From the NCBI GenBank assembly GCA_013141495.1, contig JABFQV010000005.1:1-64000 (forward strand): 64,000 nucleotides of DNA, in the 5' to 3' direction. The DNA is from Methylotenera sp. (GTDB taxonomy: Bacteria > Pseudomonadota > Gammaproteobacteria > Burkholderiales > Methylophilaceae). This document shows positions 8,044-58,956 of the stretch, piece by piece. Under the pieces are notes generated by a model. That model was given only the letters and a program-made list of their open reading frames with translations. It was not told the DNA's origin and did not search any database. Each line of letters opens with the position of its first letter. Position 1 is the first letter of the stretch. Position numbers and translations under genes: made by a program.

Positions 8044-8112
8044 CCAGCTTGATACAAAGCCCGTAAAGGGCTTGTCCGTGGAATACATGCGGTAAACCGC
8101 ATTATTCACACG
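8044..8112. repeat. Partial copy of a structured repeat, beside the rnpB 3' end
   Basis: Contains a hairpin AAGCCC-GTAAA-GGGCTT (8057-8073), then CCGTGGAATA and a second hairpin ATGCGG-TAAA-CCGCAT (8087-8102), then TATTCACACG. The last 38 bases align closely with 57801-57839, where the stem reads ATGCGC-TAAA-GCGCAT: the bases differ but the pairing is kept. It lies just 3' of RNase P RNA on the minus strand and could act as its terminator or processing hairpin, though a strong U-run is missing. Confidence 0.7.
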
Positions 8113-8128
8113 CCAAAGAGTAAAAAAC

Positions 8129-8448
8129 GAAGCTGGCCGATAAGCCGGGTTCTGTCGTGCATTACTGCACGTAACAGTCATTCATCTAGGCGCACAATTA
8201 CTCATGCGCTCAAGCAACCTACCCGCTGGCAACGCGAGCCACGTCAATGCCAGCCTATTTGGTCTTGCTGCGAATGGAGGTTACCGCGTTTCACCGTAAC
8301 TTAATACGCTCGTCTCTGTGGCCCTATTCCGCGCCTTATACTTGGTTTCCCAAGCTTTCAGCGTACGGCCGTTAGCCGTCATCCCGCTCTTTGCAGCCCG
8401 GACTTTCCTCCCCTCACTTACGTGAGCGGCGACTGTCTAGCCAGCTTC
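8129..8448 (-). ncRNA. rnpB: RNase P RNA, bacterial class A
   Basis: RNA subunit of the tRNA 5'-processing ribozyme. On the minus strand it begins GAAGCTGGCTAGACAGTCGC, followed by the conserved GAGGGGAGGAAAGTCCGGGC, and ends with CTAGATGAATGACTGT, ACAGAACCCGGCTTATCGGC and the closing CAGCTTC strand that pairs with the 5' end. These are the universal P-RNA core blocks. A TAAAAT sequence six bases before the 5' end is a likely -10 element; no good -35 is seen, because that position falls in the neighbouring inverted repeat. Ends are estimated from the terminal helix. Confidence 0.95.
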
Positions 8449-8470
8449 AATTGTATTTTATCACGCCTCA

Positions 8471-8551
8471 CCGTCATTCTGAGCACAGCGAAGAATCCAG
8501 AAGTTCGTACATTCTAAAATGCTAGATTCTTCGCTGTGCTCAGAATGACGG
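8471..8551. repeat. Perfect 27-bp inverted repeat upstream of rnpB
   Basis: The left arm 8471-8497 (starting CCGTCATTCTGAGCACAGCG) and the right arm 8525-8551 are exact reverse complements, separated by 27 bases. The core, GTCATTCTGAGCxxAGCGAAGAATC, resembles a dispersed repeat that I recall from many unrelated bacterial genomes. It covers the -35 side of the rnpB promoter. Confidence 0.85.
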
Positions 8552-8594
8552 GGCTTGAGAAGGTTTTGACTTTAAATCCCCTGCTACCGCACCT

Positions 8595-8750
8595 GTGCTG
8601 CTCAGCTTCATGGGAGCTTTCGGCAATCGGCTGTTTGAGCCAAAAGGTTTTATTGGCGAGTTTTCACATCAGAACAATTGCTTTAGCAATTCGTGATGAT
8701 GGGGATGACCTTTACGGTTGCCGATTGCCGCCCATGAGGCTGAGCAACAC
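8595..8750. repeat. Structured repeat, copy 1 (long bulged hairpin)
   Basis: The left arm 8595-8631 and right arm 8720-8750 pair along about 31 positions with only two mismatches. The exception is a six-base bulge AGCTTT (8615-8620) present only in the left arm, between TCATGGG and CGGCAATCGG. The enclosed part holds a further hairpin AATTGC-TTTA-GCAATT flanked by CATCA/TGATG. The copy at 57752-57874 has the same plan, including the bulge. No protein-coding gene is supported in 8552-8945. Confidence 0.8.
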
Positions 8751-8842
8751 AGAAATCAAGCGGTAGGGGGTAGCCTTTCACAACCGACTTAGTGCTTTAG
8801 CACTTAGCGAGGTTGGGGACGCCCCTTGCGGGTGTTGCTTTG

Positions 8843-8876
8843 GTTTCTTTCTTTTGGCTAAGCAAAAGAAAGAAAC
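8843..8876. repeat. Pyrimidine/purine 14-bp hairpin of the structured repeat region
   Basis: GTTTCTTTCTTTTG (8843-8856) and its exact complement CAAAAGAAAGAAAC (8863-8876) enclose six bases and are followed by TCGCC. A hairpin of different sequence but the same position and flank occurs at 57929-57960. Two smaller hairpins (AGTGC-TTTA-GCACT near 8793-8806 and one around 8880-8900) lie beside it. Confidence 0.75.
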
Positions 8877-8945
8877 TCGCCAGTCGCGCGAAAGCGACCA
8901 CTTACATACGGCGCAATGCCTTCCAGTTATTACACCCTACGTGCT

Positions 8946-9524
8946 CTACGAAGCAATAGCTTTATAAATATTTGCAATCTTAGTATTAATCTGTGCAGCA
9001 AGTTGCTGCGACTCACGCATGAGCGACTGCACCCGCTCCAAATTATTTTGATGCTGCAACCAAACATCCTCACCAACAATAGCCACGAAATCTATTTGCG
9101 TAGGCGCCTTGGAGCACTCGTAAACTTCCAGTCGCTTAATGCGCTCCGAAATGTCTTTAATACCACGCGTTGACGGCGAAAGCTTCGCATTACTAAGCAT
9201 CCAAGCTCTCCACTCCTTATTACCCTTAGATTGGTTACATTTCCCGCAAGAAGGTACTAAATTGTGAATTTCAGAAATGAAGCCTGTGGGTTTCTTGTTT
9301 TTGACTAAGGGGCGAAGATGATCCCATTCAGAAACAGCGCCACCGCAATATACACACTGAAATGACTGAGGCGTCATAGACAATAACTCAAGGGCATTTC
9401 TAACATCTTCATCTGTAGGAAGAACTATAGGAATAATAGAATTTATAAATGCGTTTGTGATACTTGAAGATCGCCCAGTAATCTTCATCGGGGTTGGCAT
9501 TCTGAATAAGGACAAATATTCCAT
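8946..9524 (-). CDS. HNH endonuclease family protein
   Basis: 192 residues with an HNH/zinc-ribbon nuclease core in the middle: CVYCGG, then EWDHLRPLV, then an HNLVPSCGKCNQSKGNKEW block, giving the CxxC...H...N...CxxC...K pattern of HNH enzymes. It would cut DNA, but no partner or specificity can be read from the sequence. Residues 130-192 look helical. The gene starts 10 bases after the pyrC stop on the same strand, so it is probably co-transcribed, and it is followed by structured repeats. Codon use looks more AT-rich than pyrC. ATG codons at residues 9 and 13 are alternative starts. It is likely an acquired gene and could be a small defence or mobile nuclease. Confidence 0.8.
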   Translation of the reverse strand: MEYLSLFRMPTPMKITGRSSSITNAFINSIIPIVLPTDEDVRNALELLSMTPQSFQCVYCGGAVSEWDHLRPLVKNKKPTGFISEIHNLVPSCGKCNQSKGNKEWRAWMLSNAKLSPSTRGIKDISERIKRLEVYECSKAPTQIDFVAIVGEDVWLQHQNNLERVQSLMRESQQLAAQINTKIANIYKAIAS

Positions 9525-57003: not shown

Positions 57004-57756
57004 ATGAAAATAGTAACTTGGAATTGTAATGGTGCTTTTCGTAAAAAGTTTGAGCATTTAATTCATATAAATGCTGACATTTACATTATTCAAGAGTGTG
57101 AAGATCCAGAAAAGTGTAAAGATCTACCATATAAAAACTGGGCGTCAAATTATCTTTGGATTGGAAACAATAAAAATTCAGGCTTAGGTGTGTTCGCTAA
57201 AGAAAATATTTTACTAAAATCACTTGATTGGGAGTCTGCCGGCCTACAATCTTTTATCCCTTTTGTAATAAACAATGAATTTACAGTGTTAGCAGTTTGG
57301 ACAAAGCAGGCAAATTCGCCAACATTTCAATACATTGGACAGTTATGGAAATATCTACAAGCTCATCAATCAAAGCTTTGTTCAGCAAACTCAATCATCT
57401 GTGGAGATTTCAATAGCAATACTTGCTGGGACAAGTGGGACCGTTGGTGGAATCACTCAGATGTAGTCAATGATTTAGCTAAAATAAACATTCATAGCAT
57501 TTATCATCATGCTAATAACTTAGCGCAAGGCAAAGAAACTACACCAACATTCTATCTACATAGAAATTTAGAAAAGCCTTATCACATAGATTATGCATTT
57601 GCTTCATCTAAGTTATTAGCTTCTGCAAGCCTAGAAATTGGTACCTTCAACGAATGGATTTCATTAAGTGATCATATGCCAATCATTTTCCAAATTCATC
57701 AAAAATTCCCAACGGAGCAAATCCCCCTTACACCACGCCGAGCAACGCAGGCATAA
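57004..57756 (+). CDS. Endonuclease/exonuclease/phosphatase (EEP) family protein
   Basis: 250 residues, cytoplasmic. EEP fold signatures in order: VTWNCNGAFRKKF at 4-16, IIQECED near 29 with the catalytic Glu, ICGDFNSN near 138-145, HIDYAFAS near 198-205, and SLSDHMPIIFQI near 220-231 with the terminal Asp-His. So the catalytic set of Mg-dependent nucleases is complete; a substrate cannot be assigned. It is AT-richer than folB and xerD and probably acquired. Its last codons and TAA stop lie inside the left arm of a structured repeat, so the protein end (TPRRATQA) is repeat-derived. Confidence 0.8.
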   Translation: MKIVTWNCNGAFRKKFEHLIHINADIYIIQECEDPEKCKDLPYKNWASNYLWIGNNKNSGLGVFAKENILLKSLDWESAGLQSFIPFVINNEFTVLAVWTKQANSPTFQYIGQLWKYLQAHQSKLCSANSIICGDFNSNTCWDKWDRWWNHSDVVNDLAKINIHSIYHHANNLAQGKETTPTFYLHRNLEKPYHIDYAFASSKLLASASLEIGTFNEWISLSDHMPIIFQIHQKFPTEQIPLTPRRATQA

Positions 57757-57874
57757 AGGGAGTTTTCAGCAAGCGGCTGTTTGAGACCGCAAGGGTCTTC
57801 CCCGTGGAATATATGCGCTAAAGCGCATTATTCACACGTGAAGCGTAGCGAGTTTCCGATTGCTGCCCTTTATG
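57752..57874. repeat. Structured repeat, copy 2 (long bulged hairpin)
   Basis: CATAAAGGG (57752-57760), a six-base bulge AGTTTT, and CAGCAAGCGG (57767-57776) pair with CCGATTGCTG-CCCTTTATG (57856-57874). Inside are the hairpin AGACC...GGTCT and the long hairpin CGTGGAATAT-ATGCGC-TAAA-GCGCAT-TATTCACACG. The plan is that of 8595-8750: the same arm order and the same bulge position, with different paired bases. The left arm includes the stop codon of the EEP gene. Confidence 0.8.
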
Positions 57875-57928
57875 TTGAGTAGCGCAGGGAAGGCGGAGCC
57901 CGTGGGGTTGGGGTGTCTTTTTGTTTGG

Positions 57929-57960
57929 GTACTTTATTTTGGACAAGCAAAATAAAGCAC
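57929..57960. repeat. 13-bp hairpin following structured repeat copy 2
   Basis: GTACTTTATTTTG (57929-57941) and CAAAATAAAGCAC (57948-57960) pair with one mismatch across a six-base loop and are followed by CTCGCC and a small hairpin TCGCCTAGAGGCGA. It corresponds in place and flank to 8843-8876, though the stem sequence is largely different. Confidence 0.75.
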
Positions 57961-58004
57961 CTCGCCTAGAGGCGAAAAGAAATGGTGCAAGCTTCACCAC
58001 TTTA

Positions 58005-58039
58005 CCCTCACCCCAGCCCTCTCCCTTAAATGGAGAGGG
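58005..58039. repeat. CCCTCACCCCAGCCCTCTCCC-type dispersed repeat
   Basis: CCCTCACCCCAGCCCTCTCC followed by a hairpin CCCTCTCC/GGAGAGGG (58017-58039). I recall this short motif as a dispersed repeat in many unrelated bacterial genomes. It lies next to the 3' end of xerD; together with the repeats at 57752-57960 it fills the xerD-EEP gap. Confidence 0.65.
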
Positions 58040-58047
58040 AGCAATCA

Positions 58048-58956
58048 TCACCCCCGAGGATGATGCATGCTATGCAACTGCTTCAACCGCTCCCGCGCCA
58101 CATGCGTATATATCTGCGTAGTAGAAATATCTGAATGCCCCAATAACATCTGAACCACCCGTAAATCTGCGCCATGATTGAGCAAATGTGTTGCAAAAGC
58201 ATGTCGCAATACATGCGGTGACATGTGCTTGGTGATACCCGCCAACAATGCATACCGCTTAATCAGGTACCAAAACGCTTGTCGTGTCATCGCCTCCCCG
58301 CGATTCGTCACAAACAAGGCATCTGATAAGCGTTTTTGCAAAATCTTGCCTCTGGCTTCTTTTAAATAGCGCGAAATCCAATCTGCGGCTTCTTCACCCA
58401 TGGGTACCAAGCGTGTTTTACTGCCTTTACCAGTGACGCGCACCACGCTGTCACTCACGCTCACCTCAGTAGTCTTAATTGAAACCAGCTCAGATACACG
58501 CAAACCACAGGCATATAACAGCTCCAGCATGGCTCTATCACGCAGGCCAGCAGGCTCGCTTAAATTTGGCGCATTGAGCAATGCCACCACTTCATCTTCA
58601 TTGAGGCTCTTGGGCAGGCTACGTGGCAGCTTAGGCGACTCTATCTGTAGCGTTGGATCTACATTCATTCTATTTTCACGCAGCAGGTAGCGATAAAAGC
58701 GCCGCAGGCTGGCGATTAGGCGACTAATGCTACGTGGCTTACTTTGTGGAAATTTCACCGCAAGGTACTGCTGAATGTCAGCCTGCTCTACAGTAAGCAG
58801 CTGCTTGCTCTGGCTGGGTAGCCAAAGTGCGAAAGTGGTTAGATCAAGCCGATAACTTTCTAACGTATTTTTCGCCAAGCCGTCTTCTAGCCAGAGGTGG
58901 TCAATAAACGCATCTAACTCGGCCACATCGGCAGGAATTAACACAGTCTCACTCAC
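58048..58956 (-). CDS. xerD: Site-specific tyrosine recombinase XerD
   Basis: Resolves chromosome dimers at dif with XerC. The N-terminal SAM-like domain (DAFIDHLWLEDGLAKNTLESYRLDL) is XerD-like rather than XerC-like. The catalytic residues are in ACGLRVSELVS (Arg), TGKGSKTRLVP (Lys), SPHVLRHAFATHLL (His, Arg), LLGHSDISTTQIYTHV (His, Tyr). The start is given as GTG 58956, because AAAGG lies 8 bases before it; TTG at 58962 is the alternative. It overlaps the ogt end. 302 residues. Confidence 0.93.
   Translation of the reverse strand: MSETVLIPADVAELDAFIDHLWLEDGLAKNTLESYRLDLTTFALWLPSQSKQLLTVEQADIQQYLAVKFPQSKPRSISRLIASLRRFYRYLLRENRMNVDPTLQIESPKLPRSLPKSLNEDEVVALLNAPNLSEPAGLRDRAMLELLYACGLRVSELVSIKTTEVSVSDSVVRVTGKGSKTRLVPMGEEAADWISRYLKEARGKILQKRLSDALFVTNRGEAMTRQAFWYLIKRYALLAGITKHMSPHVLRHAFATHLLNHGADLRVVQMLLGHSDISTTQIYTHVARERLKQLHSMHHPRG

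Follow-up and report, generated by a model that had tools for sequence, protein, structure and literature searches.

We could show that the window, that is, the complete analysed stretch of 64,000 nucleotides from Methylotenera sp., contains two copies of a palindromic repeat, here termed element A, which has long and variable self-complementary arms and a nearly invariant tip and which recurs in the genomes of several phyla. A preliminary description of this DNA had interpreted the two sites as one family of bulged hairpins. This observation is real but mixes two families, as a smaller REP-like repeat, element B, is nested in both copies of A. Element A is widespread yet patchy in its distribution and uncatalogued in the resources searched. 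On balance, A is probably a non-autonomous mobile palindrome whose folded form would be recognised by a factor acting in trans, probably as single-stranded DNA.

The two intervals originally compared correspond to the first hairpin of A (H1), and the element extends past their ends into two further hairpins, H2 and H3. It is composed of the variable arms with a one-sided bulge, which lies some 10 positions beneath the tip, of the tip TGTYTGAGCGNAGCGAGTT itself, of H2 and of H3. H1 is more than 100 nt long and its foot reads mostly CCCC...GGGG in alignment A1 (see below). In agreement with the preliminary description both intervals fold as long hairpins (8595-8750: -77.4 kcal/mol, z -8.4; 57735-57890: -60.3 kcal/mol, z -3.4), and both have a six-base bulge on the left side with differing paired flanks. 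The features of the window are as follows.

about 57723-57974, plus strand: element A, copy 1 (H1, H2 and H3), from the match of model R1 and the family alignments, ends set by eye against relatives
57761-57766, plus strand: one-sided bulge AGTTTT of copy 1, from the sequence and the unpaired columns 51-56 of A1
57786-57843, plus strand: element B, 58 nt, inside the tip of copy 1 between GTTTGAG and CGTAGCGAG, from B copies elsewhere and insert-free relatives
57844-57913, plus strand: right half of the tip, CGTAGCGAGTTT, and right arm of H1, copy 1, from the sequence and alignment A1 of relatives, end set by eye
57928-57961, plus strand: H2 of copy 1, A/T-rich, GGTACTTTATTTTG / CAAAATAAAGCACC with one mismatch, from the sequence, with equivalents in other phyla by eye
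57963-57974, plus strand: H3 of copy 1, a short hairpin CGCC-TAGA-GGCG, from the sequence
about 8578-8898, plus strand: element A, copy 2 (H1, H2 and H3), from the R1 match, the sequence and relatives
8615-8620, plus strand: one-sided bulge AGCTTT of copy 2, from the sequence and columns 51-56 of A1
8632-8663, plus strand: tip of copy 2 with extended apical stem, TGTTTGAG-CCAA...TTGG-CGAGTTT, from the sequence, the apices of relatives being alike
8664-8720, minus strand: insert of B type, 57 nt, reversed, in copy 2 between GAGTTT and CCGATTG, missing from the paralogue C14
8779-8834, minus strand: third insert of B type, in the tail of copy 2, missing from C14
8843-8876, plus strand: H2 of copy 2, GTTTCTTTCTTTTG / CAAAAGAAAGAAAC, from the self-complementary match and the sequence
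8883-8898, plus strand: H3 of copy 2, GTCGC-GCGAAA-GCGAC, from the sequence
8058-8112, plus strand: solitary element B just past the 3' end of rnpB, 84% identical to 57784-57838

Copy 1 is flanked by an endonuclease-like ORF and by xerD (gene names assigned by eye from the sequence), copy 2 by an ORF ending at 8946 and by the 5' side of rnpB (8125-8448, minus strand). For the two copies in the window neither ends nor target duplications could be demonstrated. The ORF 57004-57756, by eye Endonuclease/exonuclease/phosphatase-like, takes its final codons (TPRRATQA) from the left arm of A. Directly upstream of rnpB, at 8471-8551, there is an inverted pair of CCGTCATTCTGAGCACAGCGAAGAATCC..., a CGTC-tagged REP-type dimer which is separate from A and overlaps the sole promoter-like match upstream of rnpB.

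The preliminary description had also pointed to compensating changes in inner stems with TAAA or TTTA loops. The stems exist as reported (ATGCGC/GCGCAT at 57813-57828, ATGCGG/CCGCAT at 8087-8102 and AATTGC/GCAATT at 8676-8691), but they are not equivalent parts of one element: they belong to the separate element B, whose inserts several relatives of the A copies lack, and therefore the compensating changes are differences between B copies. Likewise, the stretch around 8087 is a solitary B and not a partial copy of the long hairpin; model R1 reports nothing at 8087-8102 up to an E value of 1. Element B measures about 57 nt, in which a small hairpin of the GACC-GCAA-GGGTC type is separated by a short spacer from an imperfect hairpin, CGTGGAATA...TATTCACACG. 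Besides 8058-8112, it is found alone at three further places of the same genome. In the two copies of A the B inserts occupy different sites and have opposite orientations. C14, a close paralogue of A in the own genome, is free of both inserts of copy 2, and in the relatives L042, L043 and L044 the A element of the xerD locus is present with an empty site corresponding to 57786. The insert of the 8664-8720 type is also found at loci L056, L064 and L133 and that of 8779-8834 at L041 and L184; both were assigned to B by their layout (small hairpin, CCCC spacer, TAAA-loop hairpin) and not by identity of the stem letters. Among the loci examined, the inner stems are clean in eight of ten distinct B copies caught by one regular expression and have five different sequences. 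With its tag and its imperfect stem-loop with covarying stem, B has the build of REP-like elements with RAYT. A position next to a RAYT gene was not found for B, the two PF01797 genes of the own genome adjoining other repeats (by eye). At L069 (G000:C19:117747-118070) a Y1 transposase gene lies between inverted GGGGTCAGACACGATT repeats (about 1150-1170 and 1916-1936), which fits the TIR-associated type (TIRYT) as given in section 16 of PMC3733652. A second Y1 transposase gene, at L070 (G000:C18:75688-76056), lies between GTAGGGTGGG-type repeats (about 1321-1420 and 2035-2065) that are likely a GTAG REP set of this genome.

The pairing of the arms of A was analysed in two alignments. A1 holds 23 copies of Methylotenera and near relatives (source titles known for part of them), including C14 and C15 of the own genome and leaving out the copies of the window; four of its 27 references were set aside, namely L056, L064 and one of L133, which carry B inserts, and L062 with an odd left arm. 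A2 holds 22 of 28 Bacteroidota-type references, one of which comes from a viral contig; the remaining six are extra copies from loci already represented. In A1, where 11 of the 23 rows are xerD-locus orthologues and the cells are therefore not independent, 94.8% of the cells in 31 pairs are paired and 14 pairs show changes on both sides; in A2 these values are 94.0%, 32 and 19. The covariation score amounts to 0.331 in A1 (shuffled 0.153, slid at most 0.112) and to 0.462 in A2 (shuffled 0.173, slid at most 0.142), and none of 500 shuffles reached it in either case, although both structures were derived from the same alignments and are thus favoured by them. The number of further pair types is not distinct from shuffles, being reached by 39 (A1) and 48 (A2) of 500. 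The same conclusion is obtained free of any alignment: in 86 distinct genome copies the own arms pair with a mean of -38.0 kcal/mol, as compared to -20.5 kcal/mol when arms are swapped between copies, and the own arms are better in 82 copies and no better in four. For 31 distinct copies from genomes of the class the values are -41.1 and -19.2 kcal/mol. The bulge is equally regular, as columns 51-56 of A1 are unpaired in the consensus and hold five or six letters in all 23 rows, and A2 has five columns opposite one. Model R1, which was built from A1 and hence trained without the window copies, matches the window at 57713-57926 (E 4.2e-30) and 8567-8783 (E 5.2e-23). Thus, the similarity of the two sites goes beyond chance and A is a repeat family with covarying arms and copies in related genomes; a lack of further copies or stems that do not covary, which the preliminary description had named as evidence against it, was looked for, and neither was found.

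The tip contains the heptamer GCGNAGC, in which N is free: in 143 exact distinct copies it is A in 49, C in 43, T in 38 and G in 13. Most of these copies had been retrieved by means of the motif itself, which makes them identical in part by construction, and information comes solely from inexact and secondary copies. Hairpins contain 22 of the 28 inexact copies, and 17 of these 22 differ at position 1, which belongs to the stem and is outside the 19-mer; other differences are at position 11 (three copies) and at positions 3, 7 and 10 (one each). In 66 copies of the genus, collected with a pattern that leaves the apex free between fixed TGTTTGAG and CGAGTTT, the apical loop is GNA in 23 cases, GNNA in seven, another loop of up to six in 11 and longer in 25, on two apical pairs in 34 copies, three or more in 31 and one in a single copy. 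The d(GCGNAGC) mini-hairpin is familiar as a laboratory structure, and tandem G-A pairs are a known motif; the TGA to the left and the GAG to the right of the heptamer could form such pairs, judged from the letters. According to PMC4686876, a GNA or GNNA loop closed by two or more G-C pairs makes an exceptionally stable DNA mini-hairpin, with a Tm of 78 C for GCGAAGC. The tip of A shares the heptamer of this system and also has its GNNA variants. A tip of this kind, possibly extended by the G-A pairs, suggests that folded single-stranded DNA is favoured over RNA. Our literature searches recognised no repeat family built on d(GCGNAGC).

On the contrary, A might be a structured RNA of transcripts, for example a 3'-UTR structure or a terminator, with hairpins selected as RNA and an incidental dispersal. 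We regard this as unlikely, albeit worth serious consideration. The strong covariation in A1 and A2 would be expected, a T-rich stretch often follows H1 (by eye), and the xerD-locus copy of the window lies between convergent genes. Among 122 copies with mechanically called ORFs the 3' end of the left neighbour faces A in 58 of 96 cases (58 versus 38) and 18 contexts are convergent versus eight divergent, but the right neighbour is free of orientation bias (49 versus 48). Terminator-like sites number three at 57600-58100 (shuffle mean 0.5) and two at 8400-9000 (shuffle mean 0.8), but all five are short stems inside or beside A, and the scan allows only loops of 3-8 and therefore cannot judge the whole H1. 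The bias for 3' ends, the few divergent contexts and the terminator-like sites fit an RNA role or plain promoter avoidance. Against an RNA stands the loop itself, GNA being a triloop typical of DNA, whereas RNA is expected to prefer GNRA or UUCG. In addition, no Rfam family reaches its gathering score over A: in the window only rnpB and a tRNA do so, and none does in 16 distant loci. Sub-threshold matches are confined to microRNA models and one L20 leader; over A, MIR4416 scores highest (8597-8750, 22.6 bits, cut-off 70). In this point the preliminary description, which knew of no named family, is in agreement with the stretches searched.

The dispersal of A speaks for a mobile palindrome. The 22-mer GGCTGTTTGAGCGNAGCGAGTT is present in at least 119 stretches of genome contigs, and the source titles of 80 of them name Pseudomonadota, Bacteroidota, Nitrospinota, Nitrospirae, Deltaproteobacteria, Lentisphaerae, Lachnospiraceae, Falkowbacteria and Parcubacteria, with many MAGs. 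As a measure of prevalence the exact 22-mer was rejected: it occurs in only one of 369 genomes of the class, the own one, and it misleads in that the stem contributes its first bases. With three mismatches allowed in 17 carriers these first bases vary with the stem, and the 19-mer TGTYTGAGCGNAGCGAGTT was used instead; at this setting the 22-mer exceeds its reversed control in the 17 carriers, the control itself matching in five (for example, 44 versus 9 in Ralstonia pickettii and 8 versus 5 in Variovorax). Of the 369 class genomes 30 have the 19-mer (the own genome among them), as do 25 of 272 genera; a single genome has up to 32 copies, and the reversed pattern is found in none of the 369. 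Within the own family an A-specific pattern, which misses copies with a B insert, is positive in 25 of 187 genomes, none of them outside the own genus; a count of 104 of 187 obtained with a DNA query was discarded, as matches to A, to B and to the tail are pooled in it. In Ralstonia, Nitrospinota, Bacteroidota and class genomes H1 is followed by H2-like tails (by eye). A Ralstonia-type copy at L124 (about 6835) has no H2/H3 tail, as if it had been deleted. When two cores are less than 500 nt apart, they form mostly inverted pairs: 24 of 27 such pairs are minus-plus with the tails outward and 163 to 404 nt apart (134 loci, leaving out 15 loci of one MAG). As to a coding role, 34 of 122 copies lie inside mechanical ORFs of at least 100 aa.

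Carriage by phages or plasmids was considered and rejected. Searches with a 231-nt copy gave no phage or plasmid match; a 39-nt core of A gives weak matches in four plasmid records and none in phages or E. coli. The exact 22-mer is found in no viral contig. The 19-mer occurs in 87 viral stretches, many of which are not hairpins and some of which are intergenic DNA of contigs that we guess to be filamentous phages, such as L225; in 17 of 48 distinct viral occurrences (16 of 42 and 1 of 6) the own arms are more than 8 kcal/mol better than swapped ones. At L213 (-503 to 577 around the motif) the 19-mer lies inside a stop-to-stop frame of 359 residues on the opposite strand. The viral contigs L225, L239, L251, L253, L258, L267, L278 and L295 have a common left flank ending in GCGCCAG and TGTTTGAGCGAAGCGAGTT; several of them diverge after TGTTTGAGCGAAGCGAGTT, and thus the 19-mer may mark a junction there.

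Signs of mobility come from one genome. The MAG AUK125 (G191, titled Deltaproteobacteria) has 37 exact tips, and the copies examined, which hardly differ from each other, end sharply in GGGCTTGG and CCAAGCCC. Perfect 8-bp duplications flank two of the five complete copies with both flanks (L197 and L199) and none of the other three, which suggests a staggered double-strand cut and not the known single-strand HUH/Y1 route. Copies of Methylotenera would move in the same way as those of AUK125; the latter are devoid of H2 and H3 and may therefore not represent the window copies. A REP-type TnpA, which the preliminary description had suggested looking for, does not stand up as the general partner of A, because PF01797 is present in eight of 17 carrier genomes and missing in nine, some of these being drafts. 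Among the copies listed, no exact copy has a PF01797 gene within 3 kb, and the nearest is about 4 kb away (G196:C224). All-against-all comparison of the frames of at least 100 residues around the copies found no enzyme partner either: three of the four largest groups (15, 15, 14 and 11 loci) mainly reflect orthologous surroundings of xerD within the genus, and the phylum-spanning groups, one of 15 loci and one of nine that includes a UvrA/ABC-like example, had the look of big and common superfamilies, among which there may still be a partner.

The ends and duplications of AUK125 would also suit an ordinary MITE family, for which a DDE transposase cutting with an 8-bp stagger would be responsible and the tip would be a mere structural relic. 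We consider this improbable. The ends differ among the aligned lineages and the tip does not, and the AUK125 draft showed neither a longer element sharing the ends of the copies nor an autonomous partner.

A further, somewhat less probable explanation is that the matching of the arms arises mainly by mutation, either by template-switch correction of near-palindromes or by exchange between copies, and not by selected pairing. Correction of long palindromes by template switching is known. At the rnpB locus of the genus, for which 50 of 52 genomes gave a match, A lies upstream in eight of 30 loci examined, with a degenerate copy in one more (by eye), and in different Methylotenera species (L328-L335 and L342) it occupies one orthologous position with unrelated arm classes, which suggests, as far as the sequences can tell, an exchange of arms between copies. 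The patchy occupation of this locus also counts for the mobile reading of A. Its lack at the other rnpB loci could reflect loss as well as lack of gain. Correction, on the other hand, should erase the one-sided bulge, which persists in both alignments, and leaves the invariant tip unexplained. A chance likeness of unrelated hairpins, to which only the modest z score of the 57735 copy could lend credit, can practically be dismissed in view of the E values of R1 and the empty reversed-pattern control.

When compared to known systems, A resembles the REP/BIME elements of the GTAG and CGTC super-families with RAYT, which are characterised in PMC3733652 as intergenic palindromes with covarying stems and inverted pairs, some lying inside other palindromes; the high copy number per genome is likewise shared. 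These elements measure 20-40 bp, A is several times longer and, unlike them, has the near-invariant 19-nt tip across phyla and the H2/H3 tails. A does not have the GTAG/GTGG tag that marks the foot of the 20-40 nt palindromes of GTAG-type REPs (the foot of A1 is mostly CCCC...GGGG), nor is there a common CGTC foot in A1 or A2 (by eye). REPs of some Y1 subclasses have bulged stems and atypical structures occur in Bacteroidetes, according to PMC6006769, and an overlap of A with published REP sequences given only in figures is possible; our letter and topic searches of the open-access literature, to which sequences inside figures are closed, recognised no such family among the matches listed. With MITEs and the enterobacterial RU/ERIC-type repeats (PMC2759123) A has in common that it is short, non-coding, dispersed and palindromic, and the AUK125 copies are similar in their sharp ends and, at two of five copies, in their 8-bp duplications. 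On the contrary, the ends of A are not common to the aligned lineages, and conservation is found in its centre instead of its termini. Finally, the attC sites of integrons are folded from a single strand, their bulges being fixed and the letters of their stems variable, and by analogy A may be likened to them; in attC, however, the conserved letters are at the stem base and in A in the tip.

Taken together, we suggest the following course of events for A as a mobile palindrome. A is a dispersed non-coding repeat whose stem letters are free provided that the pairing holds, with an A/T-rich hairpin after H1 and in several lineages a short third hairpin. A trans-acting factor would recognise the folded element, probably while the DNA is single-stranded, and its target would be the GCGNAGC mini-hairpin with GNA loop and the flanking TGA and GAG; selection would thus act on tip and shape and not on the stem letters. 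The copies lie mostly in intergenic DNA, often as inverted pairs with outward tails, and later serve as landing places for the smaller REP-like B, the source of the inner stems.

Methylotenera, Ralstonia, Bacteroides, Nitrospinota and candidate phyla all retain the 19-nt tip on dissimilar stems, and therefore something widespread appears to read the shape. Tentatively, and with considerable doubt, A could stand for a cross-phylum class of mobile hairpins with a single-stranded-DNA head of GNA mini-hairpin and tandem G-A pairs and with stems of any sequence, read by a widespread putative enzyme unrelated to Y1 transposases. Identification of the reader of the tip would account for the spread or the action of a large class of intergenic palindromes and place the ultra-stable GNA mini-hairpin in a natural setting.
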